DNA from: Planctomycetota bacterium
GTDB taxonomy: Bacteria; Planctomycetota; UBA1135
Length of the DNA: 47,520 bases
Assembly: GCA_003696625.1 (NCBI GenBank)
Contig: RFGR01000172.1
Span: 1-47,520 of the forward strand
Direction of reading: 5' to 3'
Shown here in pieces: positions 3,871 through 43,713 of this stretch; within the stretch, counting starts at the first letter, position 1, and every line of letters starts with the position of its first letter. The notes beneath the pieces are model-generated. The model worked only from the letters and a program-made list of their open reading frames with translations, had not been told where the DNA came from and ran no database searches. The position numbers and the translations under genes were made by a program.

Positions 3871-5996
3871 GCACTTCCCACAAGAAGCGGCCGCGCCCGG
3901 CCTCGTTGGACGCGGTCTTCCGCCCCCGTTCGATCGCCGTCGTCGGCGCCAGCCGGCGCCGCCACCAGATCGGCCACGAGATCGTCCGCAACCTGGTCGA
4001 GGGCGGCTTCACCGGACCGGTCTATCCGGTCAACCCCGGCGCCAAGGTGGTGTACTCGATGCACTGCCACCCGCGGGTCTCGGCCATTCCCGGCCCGGTC
4101 GATCTGGCGGTGCTGGTCGTGCCTTCCCGGCACGTGCTGGCGGCGGCGCGCGACTGCGCCCGCAAGAAGGTCAAGGCCCTGGTCGTGATCTCGGCCGGCT
4201 TCGCCGAGGTCGGCGGCGAGGGCGCCAAGCGCCAGGCCGAGTTGGTGGAGCTGTGCCGCCGGCACGGCATGCGGATCGTCGGCCCGAACTGCATGGGGGT
4301 ACTGAACACCGACGAGACGGTGGCGATGAACGCGACCTTCGCCGCCACCACTCCGACGCCGGGCGGTGCCGCCTTCCTGTCCCAGTCCGGCGCCCTCGGC
4401 GAGGCCATCTTGGCCGACGCCCGCGCCCTCGGGGTGGGCATGAGCCAGTTCGCGAGCGTCGGCAACCGGGCCGATGTCGGCCCGCCGGAATTGCTCGAGT
4501 ACTGGGAGAAAGATCCGCGCACGCGGATGATCCTGATGTACCTCGAGTCGCTCGGCGACCCGGAGGCCTTCATGGCCCACGCCCGGCGGGTGTCGCGGCA
4601 CAAGCCGGTGGTGGTCGTGAAGTCCGGCCGGACCGCGGCCGGCGCCCGGGCGGCGGTTTCGCACACCGGCTCGCTGGCCGGCTCCGAGGCGGCGATCGAC
4701 TCGCTCTTCGCCCAGTGCGGGGTGCTCCGGGTGGACTCCATGAAGGACCTCTTCATGCACGCCCGGGTGGCGCAGATGGAACGCATGCCCGCCGGGCGCC
4801 GGGTGGCGATCGTCACCAACGCCGGCGGCCCCGCCATCCTGGCTACCGACGCCTGCGTCGCCGCCGGCCTGGAGTTGGCCGAGCTGCGCCCGGCCACCGC
4901 CCGCCAGCTGGCCAAGGCCCTGCCGCCGGAAGCCTCCTGGGCCAATCCGGTGGACCTGATCGCCTCGGCCGACGCCGCCCGCTTCGACGCCGCCCTCGGC
5001 GCCGTCGTCGCCGATGCCAACGTCGACATGGTGATCGCGATCTTCGTTTCGCCGGTGATGATCGACGCGGCGGCCGTGGCCGAGGTCTTCGCCCGGCATT
5101 CCCGGGCGACCGACAAGCCCTTCGTCGCCTGCCTGCTCGGCAAGCAACAGGGCCAGGCGGCGGCCCGGACCCTGGCCGCGGCCGGGGTGCCGAACTTCCG
5201 CTTCCCGGAGGACGCGGCCAAGGCCCTCGGTGGGCTGTGGAAGATGAGCGAGCTGCGCCACCGCGACGCGACGCCGCCGCCGCGCTTCCGGATCCAGCGT
5301 CGGCGCGGCCGCGAGGCGGTCGAGCGGGCCCTGGCCGCCGGCCGCGAGCTGCTGAAGGGCACCGAGCTGTACGAGCTGCTGACCGCCTACGGCATCCCGG
5401 TGGTGCCCAGCCGGATCGTCCGCGAGCCCGAGGCGGCGGTGGCGGCGGCCGAGGAGATCGGCTGGCCGGTGGTGTTGAAGATCGAGGCCCAGGGCGTCAG
5501 TCACAAGAGCGATCGCGGCGGGGTGGTGCTCGATCTGCGCAATCCTGACGAGCTGCTGGCGGCCTGGGAGGATCTCGACCGTCGCTTCCGGCCGGAGGCG
5601 CCACGGCTGCAGATGCTGGTTCAGGCCCTGCGCCGGGACGGAGTCGAGACCTTCTTCGGCACCACCACCGACCCGCAGCTCGGCCGCCTGATCGCCTTCG
5701 GCCTCGGCGGCATCCACGTCGAGGTGCTGAAGGACGTCGTCTTCCGCCTCCACCCGTTGCTGCCGGCCGACGCCTGGGAGATGGTCGAGGGCATCCGTGG
5801 CAAGGAGCTGCTGCACGGCGTCCGCGGCAAGCCGCCGGTGGACGAGGAGCAACTGGTCGAGATGCTGCTCCGACTGAGCCGGATGCTGAGCGACCTGCCC
5901 GAGATCCGCGAACTCGACCTGAACCCCTTCCTGGCCGGCTACCGCGGCGTGGATTCCTGCGTGCTCGACGCCCGGGTGCGGCTGCGGCGGCTCTGA
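3867..5996 (+). CDS. ADP-forming acyl-CoA (acetyl-CoA) synthetase, fused alpha and beta subunits
   Basis: A 709-residue NDP-forming acyl-CoA ligase that interconverts acyl-CoA, ADP and phosphate with acid, CoA and ATP. Domains in order: CoA-binding Rossmann domain ('IAVVGASRRRHQIG', 22-36), succinyl-CoA-ligase-like domains with the phosphohistidine motif 'VSHTGSLAGSE' (His266), then an ATP-grasp domain from about residue 495 ('GVSHKSDRGGVV', 'ELDLNPF'). It lacks the C-terminal GNAT domain of Pat-type lysine acetyltransferases, so an energy-conserving role is more likely. ATG overlaps the lipB stop by 4 nt, indicating coupling. The last 58 bp overlap the convergent CoA-transferase/GNAT gene. 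The neighbourhood suggests 2-oxoacid to acyl-CoA to acid plus ATP; the substrate is not determined. Confidence 0.88.
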   Translation: MSTSHKKRPRPASLDAVFRPRSIAVVGASRRRHQIGHEIVRNLVEGGFTGPVYPVNPGAKVVYSMHCHPRVSAIPGPVDLAVLVVPSRHVLAAARDCARKKVKALVVISAGFAEVGGEGAKRQAELVELCRRHGMRIVGPNCMGVLNTDETVAMNATFAATTPTPGGAAFLSQSGALGEAILADARALGVGMSQFASVGNRADVGPPELLEYWEKDPRTRMILMYLESLGDPEAFMAHARRVSRHKPVVVVKSGRTAAGARAAVSHTGSLAGSEAAIDSLFAQCGVLRVDSMKDLFMHARVAQMERMPAGRRVAIVTNAGGPAILATDACVAAGLELAELRPATARQLAKALPPEASWANPVDLIASADAARFDAALGAVVADANVDMVIAIFVSPVMIDAAAVAEVFARHSRATDKPFVACLLGKQQGQAAARTLAAAGVPNFRFPEDAAKALGGLWKMSELRHRDATPPPRFRIQRRRGREAVERALAAGRELLKGTELYELLTAYGIPVVPSRIVREPEAAVAAAEEIGWPVVLKIEAQGVSHKSDRGGVVLDLRNPDELLAAWEDLDRRFRPEAPRLQMLVQALRRDGVETFFGTTTDPQLGRLIAFGLGGIHVEVLKDVVFRLHPLLPADAWEMVEGIRGKELLHGVRGKPPVDEEQLVEMLLRLSRMLSDLPEIRELDLNPFLAGYRGVDSCVLDARVRLRRL

Positions 5997-7897
5997 TCCG
6001 CCGGCGCCGGCCCCGTCTCCTCCGCGTCCCGGTCGAAGCGGATGCGGAGCAGGTACTGGCCCTCCTCGAGCCTGGTCTCGACCGGGTAGCCGCAGCGGTG
6101 GAAGACCTTCAGCATCGGTGCGTTCTCGACCTGGACGTGGGCGGTGACCCCCTCGGCGAAGTTCTCCCGCGCCACCTCGAGCAGCTCCTTGAGCAGGGCC
6201 GTGCCGATGCCGCGGTGCTGCCAGGCGTCCTCGACCGTGAAGGCGACGTCGGCCAAGCCAGTGTCCGGGTCGTAGGCGTATTGGGCCAGGGCGACCATCT
6301 GGGCGTGACCGGGCGGGCCGTAGACCGCCACGTGGGCGTAGCGGTTCTTGTAGTCGATGTCGAGGAACTCGCGCAGGTCGGCGTGGCCGATCGAGCGCAC
6401 CGCCGACAGGAAGCGGCGGTGGACGGTCTCCTCCGAGCAGCGCCGGAACATGTCCCGCAGCAGCTCCTCGTCGGTGCCGCGCAGCGGCCGCAGGCGCAGT
6501 TTGCGGCCGTCGCTGAGGATCAGCGGTTTCTCCCGCCCCTCCGGGTACGGGGCCAGGATCGGCGTCGACGGCTGGTCGCGGTAGAGACAGGCGCGGTCGC
6601 GGATCGACTCGAGCAGCCAGGCCCGGAACTTGGGGTGGGCGATGTGGATCAGCTCGAGCGCCCGCTCCCGCACCGTCTTGCCGTGCAGGTAAGCGACGCC
6701 GTACTCGGTGATCACGTAGTGGACGTCGGCCCGACTGGTGACCACCCCGGCGCCCTCAGCCAGGACCGGCACGATTCGGGAGATCGTTCCGCCCTTGGCG
6801 GTCGAGGGCATGGCGATGATCGGCTTGCCGCCCTTGCACATCGCCGCGCCGCGGATGAAATCGACTTGGCCGCCGACCCCCGAGTAGAAACGGGTGCCCT
6901 GCGAGTCGGAGCAGACCTGGCCAGTCAGGTCGACCTGCAGGGCGCTGTTGACCGCCACCAGGCGATGGTTGCGGGCGATCACCGTCGGGTCGTTGACGTA
7001 GTCGCAGCCGCGGAACTCGCACTCGGGGTTGTCGTCGATGAAGTCGTACAGGTCGCGCGATCCCATCGCGAAAGTGGCGACGATCTTGCGCCGATGGATG
7101 GTCTTGCGGCGGCCGTTCACCACCCCTTTGCGCGCCAGCCGGGCGACTCCGTCCGACAGCATCTCGGTGTGGATGCCGAGGTCCTTGCGCCCGTCGAGGG
7201 CGGCGAGGACGGCATCCGGGATCTTGCCGATGCCGAGCTGCAGGGTGTCGCCGTCTTCGACCAGCTCGGCGACGAAGCGGCCGATCCGCTCCTCCACCGG
7301 GCCGGGCGGCGGCGACTCCAGCTCCGGGATCGGCCGATCCGACCAAACGAGGGCGTCGATCCGCTCGACCGGCAAGAAGCTGTCGCCGTGCGTGCGCGGC
7401 ATGTTCGGGTTGACCTCGGCGATGACCAAGTGGGCGTGGTCGGCCGCCGCCCGCACCGCGTCGACCGAGACGCCGAGGCTGACGAAGCCGGCCTTGTCCG
7501 GCGGCGACACCGTGATCAGGGCGACGTCGAGCGGCAGCTGACCGCCCGGCCGGAACAGGTCCGGGATCTCGTGCAGGTGGATCGGCGTGTAGTCGGCCCG
7601 GCCGTCGGCCACCGCCTCGCGGACGTTGGGACCGATGAACAGGGCGTTGTGGCGGAAGCGCTCGGCCAGCGCCGGATCGGCCAGGGGATTGTCGCCGAGG
7701 GTGAGGATGCCGATGGTCTGGGCGTCGTCGGGGCCGACGTCCGGTCGGACCAGGGCCTCGAGCAGGGTGAGCGGGGCGGCGGCGCCCGAGCCGATGAAGA
7801 TCCGGCTGCCGGAGGGGATGCGGCTGACCGCCTCCTCGGGCTCGACCAGCCGGTCGCCGAGCCAGCGCCGTTCCGCAGCAGTCATGACCCTTGCCAT
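5939..7897 (-). CDS. acetyl-CoA hydrolase/CoA-transferase fused to a GNAT acetyltransferase
   Basis: A 652-residue two-domain enzyme. Residues 1-455 are an acetyl-CoA hydrolase/4-hydroxybutyrate CoA-transferase-type domain: 'LQLGIGKIPDAV' (219-230), 'GIHTEMLSDG' with a glutamate (Glu245) at the position I take as catalytic by family analogy, and 'FYSGVGGQVDFIRGAA' (337-352). Residues 465-625 are a GNAT domain with acetyl-CoA loop 'WQHRGIGTALL' (559-569). The tail is basic and low-complexity. The fusion is a known architecture. The neighbouring acyl-CoA synthetase lacks the GNAT module that its Pat relatives carry, so protein acetylation and CoA transfer may be coupled here; that is inference. 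The gene converges on, and overlaps by 58 bp, the synthetase. A TATAAG box 8 nt before ATG suggests a leaderless transcript. Confidence 0.87.
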   Translation of the reverse strand: MARVMTAAERRWLGDRLVEPEEAVSRIPSGSRIFIGSGAAAPLTLLEALVRPDVGPDDAQTIGILTLGDNPLADPALAERFRHNALFIGPNVREAVADGRADYTPIHLHEIPDLFRPGGQLPLDVALITVSPPDKAGFVSLGVSVDAVRAAADHAHLVIAEVNPNMPRTHGDSFLPVERIDALVWSDRPIPELESPPPGPVEERIGRFVAELVEDGDTLQLGIGKIPDAVLAALDGRKDLGIHTEMLSDGVARLARKGVVNGRRKTIHRRKIVATFAMGSRDLYDFIDDNPECEFRGCDYVNDPTVIARNHRLVAVNSALQVDLTGQVCSDSQGTRFYSGVGGQVDFIRGAAMCKGGKPIIAMPSTAKGGTISRIVPVLAEGAGVVTSRADVHYVITEYGVAYLHGKTVRERALELIHIAHPKFRAWLLESIRDRACLYRDQPSTPILAPYPEGREKPLILSDGRKLRLRPLRGTDEELLRDMFRRCSEETVHRRFLSAVRSIGHADLREFLDIDYKNRYAHVAVYGPPGHAQMVALAQYAYDPDTGLADVAFTVEDAWQHRGIGTALLKELLEVARENFAEGVTAHVQVENAPMLKVFHRCGYPVETRLEEGQYLLRIRFDRDAEETGPAPADQSRRSRTRASSTQESTPR

Positions 7898-32853: not shown

Positions 32854-34941
32854 ATGAGACATCGACTCTTCCTCGGGGCCGTCCTCGCGACCGCCCTGGC
32901 CTCCTCCGCCGCGGCGCAGGATTGGCCGAATCTTCCGACCACCTTCCAGCCCGCCAACAACTACACCGACGGCTTCGAGACCTATGCCGGGGTCGTGCCG
33001 CCGCACATGGCCACCAATGCGCTGGACTCCCTGACCGGTCTGCCCGATCCGGAGGCTTGGTGCAACATCGGCCAGCAGGGCCTGCCGCTCAGCGCCGCCA
33101 CCGGCACCTTCTGCCTCGAGATGGGCCTCGACCCGGCCTCGAACAACTACCACGACGTCCGCAACGGCCTGGTCATCGGCCTCGACGGCACCGGCGCCGG
33201 CGCCGACCTGTGGCTGCGCGCCAAGGCGATCAACCACGGGGAGGAGACCGACACCTGGGACGGCGTCTGGGTCTCCACCGACGGTCTGAACTGGACCCAG
33301 GCCTTCGGCGGCTGGAGCAACCTGCGCCTCTCGACCGGCGTCTGGGGCGATACTCCGCCGATCGGCCTGAGCACCACCGGCACCTCCACCGCCGGCCAGT
33401 TCTACCTGCTGTTCGCGCAGGACGACAACTTCCCCTATGGCTACCTCGACGGCATCGGCATCGACGACATCTCGATCGACACCAACGCGCCGCCGCCGCC
33501 GTTCGCCAACCTGCCGACCACCTTCCAGCCGGCCGGCTCCTTCTTCGAGGACTTCGAGTCCCTGGGCGGCGTCGTGCCGAGCTACTTCGGCGTCAACGCC
33601 ACCAACGCCGCCACCAACCTGCCCGATCCCGAGGCCTACTGCAACGCCGGTCAGACCCCGGCGATCTACAGCGCCGCTTCCGGCATGTACTGCCTGGAAA
33701 TGGCCTTTGACCCGATCAGCAACAACAACCACTACGTGCGCAACGGCCTGGTCATCGGTCTCGACGGCACCGGCGTCACCAGCGATCTCTGGCTCGACTT
33801 CCAGTTCCTGGAGTACTACGAGACCTCCGACCAGTGGGATGGCGTCTTCCTGTCCGACGACGGCGTCAACTGGGTCCTGGTCCAGCAGCTCTGGAACGGC
33901 TCCACCACCTGGGCGCCGCAGGCCAAGGTCAATCTGAGCAACCTCGGCGTCAACGTCAGCGGCCAGTTCTACCTGCTCTTCGCCGAAGAGGGGAACCAGG
34001 GCTACGCCTACTCCGACGGTATCGGCATCGACGACATCGCCGTCAACACGACGCCGCCGCCGCCGGCCTGGCCGAACCTGCCGACCTCCTTCCAGGCGGC
34101 CGCCGGCTACCACGACGACTTCGAGTCCTATCTGGGCGTCGTGCCGAGCCACTTCGGGGTCAACGAACTGGATTCCCTGACCGGGTTGCCGGATCCGGAG
34201 GCATGGTGCAACATCGGTCAGCACGCCCTCGCCATCACCACCACCTCGGGCGTCTACTGTCTGGAGATGGGCCTGATCCCGGGCAGCACCAACTACCACA
34301 ACGTGCGCAACGGCCTGGTGATCGGCCTGAACGGCGCCGGCGCCACCGAATTGAACCTGGACTTCCAGGCCATCGACCACGGTGAGGAGACCAACACCTG
34401 GGACGGTGTCTGGGTTTCCGACGACGGCCTCAACTGGTACCAGAGCTATGGCCCGTGGACGGCCCTGCTCAGCTCCTGGCAGCCCGTCACCGCCGGCGAT
34501 CTGATGACCGCCGGGGCCAACACCAACGGCGACTTCTACCTGCTGTTCGCCCAAGAGGACAACTTCCCGTACGGCTACCTGGACGGCATCGGCATCGACG
34601 ACGTGAACATCGTCGATCCGGGCCCGCCCGGCCCGACCCTCTCGGTCACCGGTTTGGTCGCCGGCGGCCTCGCCACCGTGCAGGTCGATTTCGCCACTCC
34701 GGGCGGCCTCGTCCGGCATGGCTACTCGCTGGTTGGCGGCGGCCCGACCACCACTCCGTACGGCGATCTCCTGCTGAGCCCGCCCTACAGCGAGCTGCCG
34801 GCCATGACGGCCAACGCCTCCGGCACCGCCCGCATGACCATGCCGATCCCGCCTGGGACCACCGGCGTGGCCGTCTGGCTGCACGCTTTCGACGTCGGCT
34901 CGCTGACCTTCACCAACGGCATCGCGACTTTCGTCGGCTGA
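32854..34941 (+). CDS. secreted protein with three tandem ~190-residue repeats
   Basis: 695 residues with signal peptide 'MRHRLFLGAVLATALASSAAAQ'. Three tandem repeats span 24-216, 217-405 and 406-590; each opens with 'NLPT(T/S)FQ' and closes with 'DGIGIDD'. Each looks like a jelly-roll/concanavalin-type domain ('RNGLVIGLDGTG', 'WDGVWVSxDGLNW'). Repeats 1 and 3 are closer to each other than to repeat 2. Proline-rich linkers ('PPPP') join them. The tail (591-695) resembles the shared C-terminal module. Sequons N-W-T, N-A-T, N-G-S, N-V-S, N-T-T and N-A-S are present, of interest because an STT3-like enzyme is encoded 5.5 kb away. A strong stem-loop follows. The binding target is unknown; carbohydrate is a reasonable guess only. 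Confidence 0.82.
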   Translation: MRHRLFLGAVLATALASSAAAQDWPNLPTTFQPANNYTDGFETYAGVVPPHMATNALDSLTGLPDPEAWCNIGQQGLPLSAATGTFCLEMGLDPASNNYHDVRNGLVIGLDGTGAGADLWLRAKAINHGEETDTWDGVWVSTDGLNWTQAFGGWSNLRLSTGVWGDTPPIGLSTTGTSTAGQFYLLFAQDDNFPYGYLDGIGIDDISIDTNAPPPPFANLPTTFQPAGSFFEDFESLGGVVPSYFGVNATNAATNLPDPEAYCNAGQTPAIYSAASGMYCLEMAFDPISNNNHYVRNGLVIGLDGTGVTSDLWLDFQFLEYYETSDQWDGVFLSDDGVNWVLVQQLWNGSTTWAPQAKVNLSNLGVNVSGQFYLLFAEEGNQGYAYSDGIGIDDIAVNTTPPPPAWPNLPTSFQAAAGYHDDFESYLGVVPSHFGVNELDSLTGLPDPEAWCNIGQHALAITTTSGVYCLEMGLIPGSTNYHNVRNGLVIGLNGAGATELNLDFQAIDHGEETNTWDGVWVSDDGLNWYQSYGPWTALLSSWQPVTAGDLMTAGANTNGDFYLLFAQEDNFPYGYLDGIGIDDVNIVDPGPPGPTLSVTGLVAGGLATVQVDFATPGGLVRHGYSLVGGGPTTTPYGDLLLSPPYSELPAMTANASGTARMTMPIPPGTTGVAVWLHAFDVGSLTFTNGIATFVG
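32923..34623 (+). repeat. three in-gene tandem repeats, about 0.56-0.58 kb each
   Basis: Unit 1 is 32923-33501, unit 2 is 33502-34068 and unit 3 is 34069-34623. They encode the three ~190-residue domains. Units 1 and 3 share motifs absent from unit 2 ('LDSLTGLPDPEAWCNIGQ', 'NFPYGYLDGIGIDD'), giving an A-B-A pattern. Confidence 0.85.
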
Positions 34942-36136: not shown

Positions 36137-38074
36137 CTAGCCGGGGGCGCCGGGATCCCGGCGAAGCAGCGCCGCCGCCTCGCGCCGGCCGCGCTCGACC
36201 TCCTCGCGCGGGATATCGAGCTGGATGATCTTCATGACCGCGGCCGTGAGGTCCCAGGGCACCCGGGTGGCGCTGAGGGCGTCGTCGCCCCGGCGGTTGC
36301 GGCGGGCCGGGTCGGCGCCGCGCGCGAGCAGCAGGCGGACGACCTCGGCCCGGCCGAAGAAGGCGGCGGCGATCAGCGGTGTGGTGCCGTCGGCGGCGGC
36401 GAAGTCCACCCCGGCGCCGCCGGCGAGCAGGGCCTCGACCACCGCCCGGTCGCCGCGGCTGGCGGCCTGTTGCAGGGGCGTGGTGCCGAACACCTCCTCG
36501 CGTTGATCGGGCGGGGCGCCGGCGGCTAGCGCCGCCCGGACCCGCTCTGGATCGCCCGCCGCCACCGCCGCCCACAGGTCGGGCGGGGCCGGCGCCTCCG
36601 CGTCCTCCTCTTCGCCCAGGTAGCCGAGCCCGCGTAGTTCCTCGAGGACCGCCGGATCCAGCTCCGCCTCGGCCGCCACCTCGGCGCCGTGGCCGTGGCG
36701 GGCGCGGAAGGCCTCGACCTCGCGCTCCAGCTCGCGGGCCAGGTCGGGGTGCTCGGCCGCCACGTTGTGGCGTTCGCCCGGGTCGGCGGCCAGGTCGTAC
36801 AGCTCCAGGCGCGGTCGGTCGAAGAACTGCGAGCCGAGGTGATTGACCAGCAGCTTCCAGTGACCGCGCCGGATGCTGGTCAACACGCCCGAGCCCTGGC
36901 CGAGGCGGCGCAGCACCGGGTCCTCGCGGTGCTCGGCGATCACGTCCGGCGGCGGCCCGCTCTCCTCGCCGCGGGCCAGCGGCACCAGGCTGCGGCCAGC
37001 CAGTCCGGGCGGCGCCGGGATGTCGAGCAGATCGAGCAGGGTGGGGAAGATGTCGATGCTCCGCACGGGCTCCGTCACCCGGCGCCCGGCCGGCAGCAGC
37101 CCCGGCGCGTAGATCATCAGCGGCACGCGGACCATCTCCTCGTACAGGCTGTAGCCGTGGCTGGTGCCGCCGTGCTCGAAGAACTCCTCGCCGTGGTCGG
37201 AGGTGACGATCACGATCATGTCCTCTCCCCAGCCGTCGTCGGCCAGCGCCCGCCACAGGCGGCCGATCTCATCGTCGTTGGCGCAGACGTCGCCGTCGTA
37301 GAGATTGCTGGCGTGGCGGATGAAAGAGGCGCGGTCGATGCCGGTGCGGTCGAAGTTCTCCTGGGTCACGAACAAGCCCGGAATCGGCGGTCGGCTGGCC
37401 AAGAGCCGCCGCCACTCCTCGCGGAAGCGGTCGTGTCGGGCAGGGTCGGCGAAGCGCTCCAGATACTCGGGCGCCGGCTCGTACTCCTCGTGCGGGTCGA
37501 CCGAGTGCAGGTAGAGCAACAGCGGCCAGGAGTCATCCGCCTGCAGCCAGGGCAAGACGATCTCGTTCAGCTTGCGGGCCGAACCGCTGGCGAAGCGGAT
37601 CGGGTCGCCGCCGTTGATCACGGTGGACTCGACGAAGGAGTCGAAGCCCTGGGCATAGTTCGACAGCAGGTTGCCCATGACGATGTTGGCCGAGAAGCCG
37701 GCCGTGAACCAGCCGTTGTCGCGCAGGACCTCGGGGAAGGTCAGGGCCTCGTCCGGCAACCGGTCCTGGAGCCGGTGCATGCCGTGGTCGGCCAGGTAGC
37801 TGGAGGTCAGGAGCGAGGCCATGGACGGCTTGGTCCACGGCGCCTGGCTCGAGCAGTGCTCGAACACCACCGAGCGCGCTGCCAGCTCCGCGAGAAAGGG
37901 ACTGGTCGGCCGGTCGTAGCCGTCGGCGCTGAGCCGGTCGTAGCGGCAGGTGTCGATCAGATAGAAGAGTACGCTGCGCGGCCGGGCGGCCGGATCACCG
38001 GCGGGGTCGCTCTCCTGGGCGGGGAAGGGTACGGCGGCGGCCAGGAGGAGGAGGGCGGGAAGGGCCGGTCGCAT
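36137..38074 (-). CDS. exported sulfatase/alkaline-phosphatase-fold hydrolase with ankyrin repeats
   Basis: 645 residues with signal peptide 'MRPALPALLLLAAAVPFPAQ'. The sulfatase-fold domain (about 30-480) has metal ligands in 'LIDTCRYDRL' (Asp41) and 'TSDHGEEFFEHGGTSHG'. At the nucleophile position, where activated sulfatases have C-x-P-x-R, it reads 'PWTKPSMAS', so the nucleophile would be Thr81 as in phosphodiesterase and phosphotransferase members of the superfamily. No formylglycine is possible. C-terminal residues of about 520-615 form two to three ankyrin repeats ('GTTPLQQAASRGDRAVVEALLAGG', 'GTTPLIAAAFFGRAEVVRLLLARG'), an unusual partner. TAGGAT ends 8 nt before ATG. It is divergent from the DUF5916 gene. 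Phosphoester hydrolysis outside the cytoplasm is the best guess. Confidence 0.84.
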   Translation of the reverse strand: MRPALPALLLLAAAVPFPAQESDPAGDPAARPRSVLFYLIDTCRYDRLSADGYDRPTSPFLAELAARSVVFEHCSSQAPWTKPSMASLLTSSYLADHGMHRLQDRLPDEALTFPEVLRDNGWFTAGFSANIVMGNLLSNYAQGFDSFVESTVINGGDPIRFASGSARKLNEIVLPWLQADDSWPLLLYLHSVDPHEEYEPAPEYLERFADPARHDRFREEWRRLLASRPPIPGLFVTQENFDRTGIDRASFIRHASNLYDGDVCANDDEIGRLWRALADDGWGEDMIVIVTSDHGEEFFEHGGTSHGYSLYEEMVRVPLMIYAPGLLPAGRRVTEPVRSIDIFPTLLDLLDIPAPPGLAGRSLVPLARGEESGPPPDVIAEHREDPVLRRLGQGSGVLTSIRRGHWKLLVNHLGSQFFDRPRLELYDLAADPGERHNVAAEHPDLARELEREVEAFRARHGHGAEVAAEAELDPAVLEELRGLGYLGEEEDAEAPAPPDLWAAVAAGDPERVRAALAAGAPPDQREEVFGTTPLQQAASRGDRAVVEALLAGGAGVDFAAADGTTPLIAAAFFGRAEVVRLLLARGADPARRNRRGDDALSATRVPWDLTAAVMKIIQLDIPREEVERGRREAAALLRRDPGAPG

Positions 38075-38165: not shown

Positions 38166-40346
38166 GTGCCGTCCTTGGCGACCTTCCTCCCCGTTCTGGC
38201 CCTGCTCGCGGCCCTGGGCGGCGGTTCCGGCCCGGACCCGGAGCCGCCGGCGGTGCAAGTGGTGGTCACCGAGCGCCGGCCGGTGATCGACGGCCGCCTC
38301 GAGCCCGAGGTATGGGCGCGGGCCGCGCGGCTCGGGCCGCTGACCGAGGTTGACCCCGACGAGGGCGCCCCGGCCGACCCGCCGACCGAGATCCTGCTGC
38401 TGCGCGACGACGAGCACCTCTATCTGGGGGTCATCTGCCACGAGGCGCAACCGGAGCGCTTGGTGCTCCAGAACATGGAGCGCGACGCCTTCCTGAACGA
38501 GGACGACCGCATCCAGTTCGTCTTCGACACCTTCCGCGACGGCCGCACCGGCTACTTTTTCCAGATCAGCGCCGCCGGCTCCCGCGGCGACGCCCTGCTC
38601 GGCGCCAACGGCGGCACTTTCAACAAGCGCTGGGACGGATTCTGGGAGGGACGGACCTGGATCGGCCCCGACCGCTGGACGGCCGAGATCGCGATCCCGT
38701 TCAAGACCATGGCGGCCGGGCCGGGCGACACCTGGGGTTTCAACCTCGAGCGCTACCGCGGCGCCGATCGCACCCGCTACCGCTGGGCCGCTCCGCGCCG
38801 CGACCTCCGGATCATGATCGTTTCCGAGGCCGGCGAGATCCGCGGTCTGGGCGGAACCGAGGACGGTCTCGGCCTTGAACTCGTGCCCTACTTCAAGGTC
38901 CGCCGGAGCGAGCTGGAGGATCCGGAGCGCAAGAACCTGGTCGGCGCTGGCGGTGGCGAGTTCAACTGGCGGATCACACCGCAGCTCACCGGCTCCCTGA
39001 CCTGGAACACCGACTTCGCCGAGACCGAGGCCGACCAGCGGCGGGTCAACCTGACCCGCTTTCCGCTCTTCTTCCCCGAGAAGCGCGACTTCTTCCTCCA
39101 GGACTCCAACCTGTTCGAGTTCGGCGAACAGAGCGGCTTCGGTCACCGCGGCGGCGGCGGCAACCTGCTGCCCTTTTTCAGCCGCCGGATCGGACTGTCC
39201 GGGGCGGGCGAGGAGATTCCGATCGAGGCCGGCGCCCGCCTCGCCGGCCGGGTCGAGGACCTCGACCTCGGCCTGCTGGCGGTGCGGACCGGCGCCGCCG
39301 CCGGCGCCCCGGCCGGAGAGCTGTTCGTCGCCCGCCCCTCCTACCGCTTCACCGATGAACTCTCCGGCGGTCTGCTCTTGACATCCGGCAACCCGGAGAC
39401 CAACGACACCAACCTGGTCACCGGCACCGATCTGCGCTTCAGCCGCACCGACTTCCTGCCCGGCTACCGCCTCAACCTGAACGCCTTCGTCGTCCGCAGT
39501 TCGGACGAGGAGCACCACGAGATCGGCAGCGCCTGGGGCGCCCAGGCCAGCCTGCAGAGCCGCGACTGGACCCACCGGTTTGACACCCTCTGGTCGCAGT
39601 CGGCGTTCCATCCCGGTCTTGGCTTCGTCCGGCGCCCGGGTGAGCGCTACTACCGGCTGGAAACCCGCTGGGAACCCCGCCCCGAGAACGGCGGCGCCAT
39701 CCGCGAGTACGTGTTCGGGTTCCGGCCGCGGTGGTGGACCGACTCCAGCGGACGGGTCCAGAGCCACGGCATCGACTTGACCTTCTTCGGGCTGGAGTGG
39801 AACAGCGGCGACCGCTTCAGCGCGACCTGGGCTTACGACGGCGACCGGCTCGACCAGCCCTTCTCGCCGGTGAAGGGCACGACGATCCGCAAGGGCTTCC
39901 ACCACTGGAACGCGCTCGAGACCAGCTTCCGTTTCTCGGACGTGCGGCCGCTGTCGGGCAGCCTCGACCTGCGCGCCGGCCAGTGGTACGACGGCCGGGC
40001 GGTCCGCGCCGGCGGCGGCCTCGACTGGCGCCCCGACGCCCATCTCCGTCTTGGGTTGGACCTCCGGGAGGACCACTTCTTCCTGCCCGGCGGCGACTTC
40101 GTCTCCCGCGTCGGCATCCTGCGGGGGAACTACTCCTTCTCGCCGGACCTCTCCTGGAACAACCTGCTCCAGGCCGACAACCAGTCCGATGTGGTCGGGC
40201 TGCAGTCGCGCCTGCGCTGGATCCTGGCCGACGGACAGGAGTGCTTCCTGGTCCTGAACTACGCCTGGCAGGAACTCGCCGGCGGTCCCTTCGTTCCGGC
40301 CTCCCGCGACCTCACCGCCAAGGTGGTCTGGACCCTTCGCTTCTGA
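38166..40346 (+). CDS. DUF5916-type outer-membrane protein with CBM9-like domain
   Basis: 726 residues. After a hydrophobic N-terminus ('FLPVLALLAALGGG'), residues 30-240 form a CBM9-like sugar-binding sandwich ('RPVIDGRLEPEVWARAARL', 'HLYLGVICHE', 'WTAEIAIPF'). The rest is beta-rich with alternating aromatic strands to a final phenylalanine ('AKVVWTLRF'), as in outer-membrane barrels. 'FFPEKRDFFLQDSNLFEFG' is the hallmark of the DUF5916 family. The ORF start is GTG 38166, but the box TAGACT touches it; TTG at 38175 lies 9 nt past the box and is likely under the leaderless rule. It is followed by the STT3-like gene on the same strand after 64 bp. It is thought to handle carbohydrate at the outer membrane; the role is uncertain. 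Confidence 0.85.
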   Translation: MPSLATFLPVLALLAALGGGSGPDPEPPAVQVVVTERRPVIDGRLEPEVWARAARLGPLTEVDPDEGAPADPPTEILLLRDDEHLYLGVICHEAQPERLVLQNMERDAFLNEDDRIQFVFDTFRDGRTGYFFQISAAGSRGDALLGANGGTFNKRWDGFWEGRTWIGPDRWTAEIAIPFKTMAAGPGDTWGFNLERYRGADRTRYRWAAPRRDLRIMIVSEAGEIRGLGGTEDGLGLELVPYFKVRRSELEDPERKNLVGAGGGEFNWRITPQLTGSLTWNTDFAETEADQRRVNLTRFPLFFPEKRDFFLQDSNLFEFGEQSGFGHRGGGGNLLPFFSRRIGLSGAGEEIPIEAGARLAGRVEDLDLGLLAVRTGAAAGAPAGELFVARPSYRFTDELSGGLLLTSGNPETNDTNLVTGTDLRFSRTDFLPGYRLNLNAFVVRSSDEEHHEIGSAWGAQASLQSRDWTHRFDTLWSQSAFHPGLGFVRRPGERYYRLETRWEPRPENGGAIREYVFGFRPRWWTDSSGRVQSHGIDLTFFGLEWNSGDRFSATWAYDGDRLDQPFSPVKGTTIRKGFHHWNALETSFRFSDVRPLSGSLDLRAGQWYDGRAVRAGGGLDWRPDAHLRLGLDLREDHFFLPGGDFVSRVGILRGNYSFSPDLSWNNLLQADNQSDVVGLQSRLRWILADGQECFLVLNYAWQELAGGPFVPASRDLTAKVVWTLRF

Positions 40347-40410: not shown

Positions 40411-42582
40411 ATGTCCCGAGACTGCCGGATCCGGCTCGCGCTACTCGCCCTGGTGGCGGCCCTTTCCTGGGGCGCGCGCGAGGCCCGCTCGGCCCGCTTT
40501 CAGCGCCTGGCCGCCGGCGGCGGGCAGCCGGCGCCGGCGGCCGAGTGGTTCAGCGCCGAGCCGGACGGACTCTACCACGTGCGCCGGGTCGAGCGGGCGC
40601 TGGCGGAAGGGTTGCCGCCGGCACCGCGCGATCCGGCGATGGCCTTCCCCGCCGGTGCCCCGATCCCCTGGCCGCCGTACTACGACGCACTGCTGGCGGT
40701 GGCCGCCCGACCGGTCGTCGGACCGCCGCCCGCCGGCGACCGAACGCATTGGCGGAACCGGCTGGAGCGCTTCGCCGCCACCCTGCCGGTCGTCTTCGGG
40801 GCGGCGACCAGCGTCGCCGCGGCGGCGGCCGGGGCCGCTCTGGCCGGGCCGCCGGGGCTCCTCGCCGTCGGGCTCCTGCACGCCCTCTCCTACGGCGCGA
40901 TCCACTATTCGGTGCCGGGGGTGGCGGATCATCACGCCTTCGTCTCGCTGCTCCTGGCCCTTCTGTTGCTGCTCGTCGCCGAGGCGATCCGGCGCCGCGC
41001 CTTCGCGCGGCCGGGCGCCGGCTGGCGCTTCGGGGCGGCGGCCGGGGTCGCCGCCGGCCTGCTGCTCGGCACTTGGGTGGCATCGCTGGTCTTCGTGGTG
41101 GTGGTGCAGGCCGCACTCGGTCTGTGGGTGGTCTGGGTCTGCTGGCGCCGGCGGCCGGCGCCGGGGCTGGCGCCGTTCGGCCTCGGCTTCCATCTGGCGG
41201 CGCTGCTGACGGTGCTGCCGGCGGTCCTCCAGTCGCCGTGGCGGGAGACGCAGCCCTGGATGGTGGTGAACCTGAGCTGGTTCCACCCGCTCCACCTCGC
41301 CGCCGGCGCGGTGGTGTTCCTGCCGCTTTGGGGCTGGCCGGTGGCCTCTCCCTGGCGCCGCCGCTGGCCCTTCCTGGTCGCCGGCGCCCTGGCCGCCGCC
41401 GCCGCCGCACTGGCCCTCGCCGGTGCCGGGCCGGTGGCCGGAATCCGCGAAGGCTTCGCCTGGGCGGCGCGGGCCAATGTCTTCATGGGCGACATCGCCG
41501 AATCACAGCCGCTGCTCGGCCCCGACCGCTACGGCACCGGCGGGCTCTTCGGCTGGCTCGGCTACACCGTGCTGCTGGTGCCGGCCGCCTGGCCCTTCGG
41601 CCTGTGGGCGCTCCGGCGGCGGCCGGATCTCCTGCCTTGGTTGGTGGCCTTGCCGGTGCTGCTGGCCCAGGCTCTGGCCCAGCGCCGCTTCGCCGCCGAC
41701 GCCGCTCTGCCGCTGGCGGTGCTCGTCGGCTGGGGACTGGCCTCCGGCCTTCCCCGTGGTCGGTGGCGTTGGCTGGCGCTCCCGGCGGCCGTGCTGCTCC
41801 AGCTACCAGGCGTCGCCAAGGTGGCCGACGGTCTGGCCCACCGGCGGCCGGATCAGACCGACCTCGAGGCGGTGCGGATGAACGGCCTGCGGGCCGCCCA
41901 CGAGTGGCTCGGCGCCCACGCCGCGCCGGACTCCTCGGTGATGGCCCACTGGGATCAGGGCCACGCGATCGAACTCCTCACCGGCATGGGCAGCGTGGCG
42001 ACCAACTTCGGCAGCTACGTCGGCGAGGAGGGCTTCACCGACGCCGCCCGCTTCTTCACCGCGCAGGATCTGGAGGCGGCCGAGTGGTTGCTCGACCGAC
42101 ACCGCTGCCGCTACGTCCTGGTCCACGGCGGTCCTCTCTGGGCCTGGGACCAGCTCCGCGCGGCCGCCGGGGGGACGGCGGCCGAGGCCTGGCGATCGAG
42201 TCTGGCCGGCATTCTCTACCGTCCGGACGCGGCGCCGCCCTGGCTGCGCCTGCGCTGGGTCGCCCCGTTCCGCGACCCGGACCTGCCCGATGGAGTGCTG
42301 CCGGCGGTGGCGCTGATCTACGAGCACGTGCCGGGGGCGCGGTTGGAGGCCTCGGTTCCGCCCGGCGCCGAGGTCGAACTCGGCATCCCGGTGGCGGTCC
42401 CGGGCGGGGTCGCCGCCTTCACCTGGCGGATCGCGGCCGCCGCCGACGCCGGCGGCCGCGTGCGCTTCCGGCTGCCCTACCCTGGGAAGGCCGTGCTGAG
42501 CTGGGAAGCCGGACGAATCGAGGTGGCCGTGTCGGAGGAGGCCGTCGCCACCGGGGCGAGACTCACCGCCGGGGACGACTGA
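40411..42582 (+). CDS. STT3-like oligosaccharyltransferase (AglB/PglB superfamily)
   Basis: 723 residues: about 12 transmembrane helices then a 230-residue external C-terminal domain. STT3 landmarks in order: 'EPDGLYHVRR' with Asp52 in the first external loop; 'YSVPGVADHHAF' (167-178), matching the archaeal 'G-x-A-D-H-H' second metal motif; 'GDIAESQP' (360-367), in the place of the TIxE loop; and 'HWDQGHAI' (513-520), in place of the WW-D-x-G sequon-binding motif. Such enzymes move a lipid-linked glycan to the Asn of N-x-S/T sequons on exported proteins. The variations (D for T in TIxE, H for the first W) are real departures. A DUF5916/CBM9 gene precedes it and its stop abuts that of a secreted protein gene. 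No glycan-assembly genes are in the window. TAAGAT is 33 nt upstream. Confidence 0.78.
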   Translation: MSRDCRIRLALLALVAALSWGAREARSARFQRLAAGGGQPAPAAEWFSAEPDGLYHVRRVERALAEGLPPAPRDPAMAFPAGAPIPWPPYYDALLAVAARPVVGPPPAGDRTHWRNRLERFAATLPVVFGAATSVAAAAAGAALAGPPGLLAVGLLHALSYGAIHYSVPGVADHHAFVSLLLALLLLLVAEAIRRRAFARPGAGWRFGAAAGVAAGLLLGTWVASLVFVVVVQAALGLWVVWVCWRRRPAPGLAPFGLGFHLAALLTVLPAVLQSPWRETQPWMVVNLSWFHPLHLAAGAVVFLPLWGWPVASPWRRRWPFLVAGALAAAAAALALAGAGPVAGIREGFAWAARANVFMGDIAESQPLLGPDRYGTGGLFGWLGYTVLLVPAAWPFGLWALRRRPDLLPWLVALPVLLAQALAQRRFAADAALPLAVLVGWGLASGLPRGRWRWLALPAAVLLQLPGVAKVADGLAHRRPDQTDLEAVRMNGLRAAHEWLGAHAAPDSSVMAHWDQGHAIELLTGMGSVATNFGSYVGEEGFTDAARFFTAQDLEAAEWLLDRHRCRYVLVHGGPLWAWDQLRAAAGGTAAEAWRSSLAGILYRPDAAPPWLRLRWVAPFRDPDLPDGVLPAVALIYEHVPGARLEASVPPGAEVELGIPVAVPGGVAAFTWRIAAAADAGGRVRFRLPYPGKAVLSWEAGRIEVAVSEEAVATGARLTAGDD

Positions 42583-43713
42583 TCACAAGTGGGCCAGGCC
42601 GTTGCTCCAGGCCAGGACCTGGCGGCCGCTCGCGTCGGTGAACGCCGCTTGGGCGAAGATCGGTCCCCGGGCCGAGGGGGGGATCGGCGCCGTGAACACC
42701 GCCTCCCCGCTGGGGAGGACGGTCATTTCCGGTGCGGCCAGCAGCGCCCGGCCGACCAGGATCCGGCCGGCAGGGTGCGGCCGGTCGGCATGGCTCCGGC
42801 TCAACAGAAGAAAGGCCCGGTCGCTGTTGGTGACCGCGGCTCTGCCGGTCCAGGTGATCGGATTGCCCGGGATCCAGGCCGTGCTTTCCAGGGTGGACCG
42901 GTTCGGATAGGAGCCTTGGAAGGGGTAGGAACCGGCCTCCGGACCATAAAGAACCAGGTCGAGGGCGGCGTAGGGGACGCCTCCGAACCACCAACAGCCG
43001 TTGGCCAGGTTCGAGGTCGTCCCCCAAAGGAGCTGGTTCAGGTTGCCGCCGTTCGACCAGCCGCCGGCGGTGGAGCAGCCGGCGACCGGGGTCGGGCAGG
43101 GGCGGGCGAGCACCGGCCCCATCTGGGCAATCGGGGGGCCGTTGAAGGTGTACATGCCTTCGATCCGGTAGCCGAAGGAGCGGCCAGCGGCGCCACTGCT
43201 GTGAAACGGGGCGGAGATGGAGGATGTGCACTCCAATCCCCCGGTGAGGTCCACTGCGACCGACCAGCAGGAAAGGTTGCCGGTCGAAGATACCGGCAGG
43301 TCGGTGAGCAGGTATTCGCAGTTCGGCGCCGGCGGCAGGGTGCAGGGCACGTAGTCGTCGTAGAACGAAAGCTTGAAGGAGACTCCGTTCCTCGTGGAGG
43401 CCAGGGTCGGCGTGCAATAGGCGAAATCGAAGCCGCTGATCTGCTCCAGTTCGAGGGCATTGGCGTCGGGGATCACGCCCTCGTCAGCGACGAAGCCGCC
43501 GCCGGTCCACGAGCTCCCCTGCGGGAAGTAGTAGCCGGTGGGGAAGGTGCAGTTGTAAAGGACCCGGGCCCTGGACCGACCGGTTGGACCACCCAGGGTC
43601 CAGGTGCCGGTGGCCAGGTGGTACTCGCCGTAGTAGCGGATCGGGACGTCACCGATCGGCACGGGCTGGCCGGGGACCTGGGCGAGAAGGAGGAGGAGAG
43701 GGGCGATGATCAT
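42583..43713 (-). CDS. secreted protein with the shared C-terminal module
   Basis: 376 residues starting 'MIIAPLLLLLAQVPGQ', a short signal peptide. The mature part is beta-rich, with ten or more cysteines ('YNCTFPTG', 'YVPCTLPPAPNCEY', 'GLECTSS', 'RPCPTPVAGCS'), suggesting disulfides. The last 75 residues match the shared module ('LPSGEAVFTAPIPPSARGPIFAQAAF'). Three sequons are present (N-C-T, N-L-S, N-R-S). The best-formed promoter of the window (TTGACG-17-GATACT) precedes it with a leader of about 30 nt. The stop TGA and the STT3-like stop together form TGATCA with no spacer. The function is unknown; the family is not recognised beyond the C-terminal module. Confidence 0.76.
   Translation of the reverse strand: MIIAPLLLLLAQVPGQPVPIGDVPIRYYGEYHLATGTWTLGGPTGRSRARVLYNCTFPTGYYFPQGSSWTGGGFVADEGVIPDANALELEQISGFDFAYCTPTLASTRNGVSFKLSFYDDYVPCTLPPAPNCEYLLTDLPVSSTGNLSCWSVAVDLTGGLECTSSISAPFHSSGAAGRSFGYRIEGMYTFNGPPIAQMGPVLARPCPTPVAGCSTAGGWSNGGNLNQLLWGTTSNLANGCWWFGGVPYAALDLVLYGPEAGSYPFQGSYPNRSTLESTAWIPGNPITWTGRAAVTNSDRAFLLLSRSHADRPHPAGRILVGRALLAAPEMTVLPSGEAVFTAPIPPSARGPIFAQAAFTDASGRQVLAWSNGLAHL

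Follow-up and report, generated by a model that had tools for sequence, protein, structure and literature searches.

Which reaction does the product of the gene at 40411-42582 catalyse, and which acceptor does it recognise? The question arises because this product resembles an oligosaccharyltransferase (OST) of the STT3/AglB type in which a motif reading the acceptor peptide is altered. The gene lies in a stretch of 47,520 nucleotides (the window), which is an entire contig (C53). The host genome is a UBA1135-like planctomycete MAG of 3.0 Mb, 90.5% complete, and the close relatives that bear names are MAGs of Planctomycetota, among them UBA1135 and UBA7888. Closest is NIOZ-UU38, at 63-65% identity.

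Gene and family assignment

The gene had been proposed from the letters of the sequence and proved to be real: the open reading frame occupies exactly 40411-42582 on the + strand, starts with ATG, contains 723 codons and has a coding-type base composition (gc1 0.80, gc2 0.58, gc3 0.91). The gene and the domains recognised in its product are as follows.

40411..42582, + strand: AglB/STT3-type membrane glycosyltransferase gene, 723 aa (open reading frame and translation, Pfam, profile against AglB-L, AlphaFold2 and Foldseek)
41920..42123, + strand: AglB_core-like domain (PF22627), residues 504-571 (Pfam)
42334..42501, + strand: AglB_L1-like peripheral beta domain (PF18079), residues 642-697 (below the Pfam cut-off here; matched in 43 of 55 relatives)

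The AglB_core-like domain scored 32.9 bits against a cut-off of 27 (E 8.7e-8) and was detected in 49 of the 55 relatives. PF02516 (STT3) was just missed by hmmscan (24.4 bits, cut-off 24.5) and passed in the genome search (25.9). The sole NCBIfam match was to TIGR04154, archaeal STT3, with an E value of 2.9e-47 and a score far below the cut-off. When a profile of 18 orthologues was compared with the PDB, Archaeoglobus fulgidus AglB-L was found at E 8.4e-28, in a motif-by-motif alignment that covers the membrane region as well as the core and C-terminal domains; PglB gave no match at E <= 1 in the same search.

An AlphaFold2 model built from 55 sequences (pLDDT 93.5, pTM 0.93) has both the GT-C membrane domain and the C-terminal mixed alpha/beta core used as the GT66 criterion. 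Its top Foldseek match was A. fulgidus AglB (7e9s, E 1.6e-23, TM 0.78). Eukaryotic STT3 followed with a TM of about 0.6, the C-mannosyltransferase DPY19 with 0.57-0.58 (E 7e-9 or weaker) and PglB with 0.46-0.51, while ALG9/ALG12, ArnT and Pmt4 were far below AglB at about 0.35-0.38. The analysis confirmed, at the level of the modelled fold, that the product is a GT-C enzyme of the STT3/AglB type with a predicted catalytic function, nearer to archaeal AglB than to Campylobacter PglB, as the sequence-only reading had it.

A monosaccharide transferase of the ArnT/PMT/GT39-83 type, using a polyprenol-phosphate-sugar, would share the GT-C superfamily relationship, and weak PMT Pfam scores do occur in some distant relatives. 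Against this, the TM to ArnT and Pmt4 was 0.35-0.37 compared with 0.78 to AglB, and the AglB C-terminal core and peripheral domains are present, which leaves this explanation very improbable. A better match to ArnT or PMT had been named as the result that would overturn the STT3/AglB assignment; as none was found, the assignment stands.

Catalytic and donor residues

The motifs quoted in the sequence-only reading, DGLYH (52-56), ADHH (172-175), DIAE (361-364) and HWDQGH (513-518), were all found and are conserved among relatives. HMM alignment with A. fulgidus AglB-L (AfAglB) placed them and one further residue as listed below.

40564..40566, + strand: D52, equivalent of the catalytic/metal Asp47 of AfAglB, first DXD motif (invariant in 55 rows)
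40927..40935, + strand: D173-H174-H175, equivalent of AfAglB D161-H162-H163, second DXD motif, metal ligands (invariant; roles from PMC8342417)
41491..41505, + strand: D361-I-A-E364-S365, TIXE site of the EL5 loop, Glu kept and Thr replaced
41686..41688, + strand: R426, equivalent of AfAglB R426, near the donor phosphate (invariant; role from PMC8342417)
41947..41964, + strand: H513-W514-D515-Q516-G517-H518, WWDYG variant without the first Trp

In AfAglB the TIXE site reads T357-I-A-E360 and the last segment W550-W551-D552-Y553-G554-H555. Ten residues (D52, D173, H174, H175, E364, S365, R426, W514, G517 and H518) are invariant in the 55-row alignment. E364, the EL5 Glu of TIXE/SVSE, is thus strictly kept, and the preceding Thr position is variable in the family.

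The metal ligands of AfAglB are these Asp and His residues; its E360 works via metal-bound waters and its R426 is close to the donor phosphate (PMC8342417). By analogy, the protein would use metal-centred inverting chemistry as AglB does, with D52, D173 and H175 round the metal, E364 at the acceptor amide and R426 at the carrier phosphate. It would sit in the cytoplasmic membrane and expose its globular domain on the outer side. Its most likely reaction is the transfer of a preassembled glycan from a polyprenol-phosphate carrier to an acceptor on proteins that are secreted or belong to the outer membrane. The counterpart of AfAglB His81, a residue close to the donor phosphate, is Pro86 in the sequence alignment, and to judge from this substitution the donor pocket may also be different. 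Near the site aligned with the DK/MI motif of the kinked helix no conserved Lys was seen in that alignment.

The variant WWDYG motif

The replacement of the first Trp of WWD by His, pointed out in the sequence-only reading, is real, and the loss is fixed across the whole clade: the first position is never W in the 63 clade proteins (H, A, G, T, N, S, P, L, V, Q, D, E and F were seen), and the second is W in 63/63. The third is D in most of them and elsewhere S, T, N, G, A or R. In a maximum-likelihood tree calculated without the motif columns the clade formed one well-supported group, with the loss of D concentrated in one part of it; this was a quick run with a single AglB outgroup and long branches, so that deep placements are unsure. 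More distant planctomycete STT3 proteins, of which those scanned have STT3, AglB_core-like and/or AglB_L1 domains, include one that keeps WWD (L111) and others having YWD, FWD, PWD, VWD, TWS, PWG or VWG. Three divergent STT3-like proteins of the phylum (L112, L113 and L114) have the motif scrambled or absent (NPA in L112, PWW in L113, and PWT).

In PglB the ring nitrogen of the first Trp holds the +2 Ser/Thr hydroxyl, and simulations of the C. lari enzyme gave values for holding this hydroxyl of 0.78 for the first W, 0.32 for the second and 0.92 for D (PMC8479172). WWDYG is described as strictly conserved, and C. jejuni PglB lost its activity when the motif was mutated (PMC3527161), so that a protein without it could have a different acceptor. 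Since WWDYG is changed and the catalytic set is kept, the change sits in the acceptor pocket and the chemistry side is retained. Because the first Trp is lost throughout the lineage, an altered acceptor or sequon rule is possible in this clade.

The Asp in place of the TIXE Thr, which had also been taken as a sign of a new sequon rule, gained no support from closer comparison. In AglB and PglB this Thr pairs with the acceptor via its backbone carbonyl (PMC8342417, PMC8479172), and the position varies freely in the family. The substitution is weak evidence because the known structures use the backbone of that residue.

From the predicted fold, homology, conservation pattern and gene neighbourhood we infer that the gene probably encodes a protein glycan transferase that derives from AglB, is specific to this lineage and has its +2 pocket remodelled. 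The missing Trp might be made good in the window protein by H513, which could supply the +2 hydrogen bond and so preserve N-x-S/T, and in relatives with A, P or T at this position, or with the Asp also lost, the +2 rule would be looser or different.

It could also be that the first Trp is simply dispensable. The enzyme would then be an ordinary OST that N-glycosylates normal sequons, the His or other residue compensating together with the conserved GH and NFGSYVG segments. We give this appreciable weight, though somewhat short of an even chance. The catalytic core and the second W are wholly conserved, D515 is kept in most members including the window protein, His is able to donate a hydrogen bond, and the WWDYG segment is plastic in AglB structures (PMC3703281). 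However, many members have A, P, G, L or V at the first position, that is, no side-chain hydrogen-bond donor, D515 is lost in a subclade, and the motif is, as mentioned above, described as strictly conserved and needed for PglB activity.

A further explanation is that an AglB scaffold has been repurposed and the glycan goes to a target other than protein Asn, be it a residue of another kind, a lipid or a polymer of the cell surface. The donor and metal side is fully conserved and the hydroxyl-reading pocket is degenerate, as would be expected in this case, and other planctomycete relatives (L112 and L113) are without W-W-D altogether. Nevertheless E364 is invariant and its equivalent contacts the Asn amide in both AglB and PglB, the second W is invariant throughout the clade, and the full-length fold is closest to AglB. 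We consider such repurposing unlikely and prefer a glycan transferase acting on proteins through a remodelled acceptor pocket.

Paralogues

Several genomes carry 2-4 OST copies, typically one of the HWD type and one of the xWS/xWT type (L038/L047, L041/L044, L042/L045, L043/L050, L051/L067, L057/L073 and L071/L089). In two genomes a third copy, of the SWD type, is in tandem with the HWD type (L103/L122 and L102/L123). Paralogues within single genomes thus differ exactly at the WWD site. In archaea, the paralogues found in a single organism reportedly all have the same DK/MI pocket type (PMC3703281). The variation within genomes, as seen in aligned sequences, fits diversified acceptor choice without proving it. 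Tentatively, and with less than even confidence, the group might be regarded as a planctomycete-centred family in which the Ser/Thr-reading pocket was rebuilt and the paralogues of one genome (HWD, SWD, LWS/EWS, partly in tandem) came to follow different acceptor rules, giving N-linked or other glycosylation off N-x-S/T.

Distribution and gene neighbourhood

A profile search of the phylum found matches in 20 of 294 genomes, 13 of them in the family and order of the window and the rest scattered. Within the family (f1) the gene was found in 21 of 26 genomes. Family members were also seen in three MAGs labelled Gemmatimonadota (L074, L080 and L095), which may reflect transfer or mis-binning.

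The gene has a conserved upstream partner.

38166..40346, + strand: DUF5916 gene, putatively of the outer-membrane barrel type, in the same orientation as the OST gene and separated from it by 64 nt

In 20 of the 21 OST-positive f1 genomes the OST gene is directly behind the DUF5916 gene, and in the remaining one the locus is cut by contig ends. At most of the 13 loci measured the two genes lie within a few bases of each other; the extreme gaps, -82 and +64 nt, hinge on which start codon is assumed. DUF5916 is held by all 26 f1 genomes, including five in which no OST was detected. In three OST-negative genomes, which belong to the same genus-level group, the DUF5916 gene is followed by a gene for a short, exported-looking protein and then by two genes whose relatives also come after the OST gene in OST-positive genomes. 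The short genes at the place of the OST gene are at L136:5847-6410, L137:5725-6582 and L138:5663-6223, and a similar one follows DUF5916 in L140. As DUF5916 is kept in the OST-negative genomes, and the genes that follow in the three just described, gain or loss of the OST gene has taken place at one fixed site and DUF5916 is independent of it. Any functional link between the two proteins is conjectural.

Some members of the same genus-level group lack the OST gene and retain DUF5916; the OST gene is therefore dispensable. This could point to a decaying or inactive paralogue, but the frames are intact, the catalytic residues are invariant across 34-65% identity and the adjacency to DUF5916 is conserved, so that decay has very little to recommend it.

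In loci outside f1 the gene before the OST gene is often one of the sulfatase family. At L082:10288-11964 and eight other loci, including that of Poly30 (L085), a conserved protein without a Pfam match at E 0.001 is encoded directly downstream of the OST (+1, same strand). Among the neighbours that were clustered and, in part, annotated, no glycan-assembly cluster was seen beside the OST gene; the recurrent ones were DUF5916, sulfatases and others. Three other genes of the window were noted in passing. The product of 36140-38074 (- strand) is a sulfatase that carries ankyrin repeats at its C-terminus, a combination of domains seldom expected in a protein that, like this one, looks exported. 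A secreted protein with three long internal repeats and no Pfam match is encoded at 32854-34941 (+ strand), and an acetyl-CoA hydrolase/transferase fused to a GNAT acetyltransferase domain at 5939-7897 (- strand).

Glycan supply and sequons

The genome encodes four initiating transferases of PF02397 (PglC/WbaP type), one of PF00953 (WecA/MraY type) and four flippase-like proteins. From these genes lipid-linked glycans appear plausible in the host, but the evidence is not specific, because such families are common in bacteria and match most of the bacterial controls.

Nearby secreted proteins had been said to carry several N-x-S/T sites. The counts were roughly right, with eight sites rather than six in the product of 32854-34941 and three in that of 42583-43713, but the meaning given to them was wrong: shuffling leads one to expect 6.1 (P = 0.25) and 2.1 (P = 0.35), that is, chance level. 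Sequon enrichment was also rejected as evidence for the secreted proteins of the neighbourhood as a whole (148 sites observed, 147 +- 10 after shuffling). The absence of enrichment is in line with a target other than Asn. In secreted proteins of OST-positive genomes the ratio of N-x-S/T to shuffle was 1.21, slightly above expectation as an ordinary OST would suggest; yet in OST-negative relatives it was nearly equal (1.15), showing no clear difference in a comparison of modest sample with crude signal-peptide calls. Conserved sequons of DUF5916 (NL[ST]R and DNxSD) were considered as acceptor sites and discarded, as they mostly persist in the DUF5916 proteins of OST-negative genomes.

Significance

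The data describe an AglB-like OST group in Planctomycetota in which the catalytic centre is kept and the sequon pocket is changed in every clade member. The clade provides naturally occurring variants with which to study the reading of the +2 rule. No report of this family was found in the literature searched, an open-access subset and hence weak evidence of novelty. A cultured, completely sequenced carrier exists (strain Poly30, CP036434.1), whose homologue is at L085:7857-10331; this makes the family directly testable. If the acceptor rule does differ, such enzymes could widen the choice of acceptors for glycoengineering.

Comparison with known systems

With ArnT and PMT the protein has the GT-C fold superfamily in common, at a TM of about 0.35, and differs in having the AglB core domain. 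TIGR04154, the archaeosortase-associated archaeal STT3, is the best NCBIfam match, of which the protein at 161.6 of 450 bits is not a member. Like Campylobacter PglB, it is bacterial and has the same GT-C oligosaccharyltransferase architecture; unlike PglB, it has an altered WWDYG and no pgl-like cluster seen beside it, in addition to the weaker structural similarity and the lack of a profile match described above.

The closest known system is A. fulgidus AglB-L (PDB 7e9s/5gmy, CAZy GT66). The window protein differs from it in its bacterial host, its shorter length, the missing first W of WWDYG, the replaced TIXE Thr, the Pro86 at the His81 position and the lack of a DK motif recognisable by sequence. 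It shares with AglB-L the full-length fold (TM 0.78), the peripheral beta domain, the catalytic Asp, the second DXD (D-H-H), the EL5 Glu, Arg426, the second W with the following Asp, and the Gly-His after the motif. Overall, by fold and catalytic residues the protein is an AglB-type oligosaccharyltransferase of predicted activity with one defining motif, WWDYG, altered, and we therefore file it as a variant presumed to act like an AglB rather than as a standard member of GT66.
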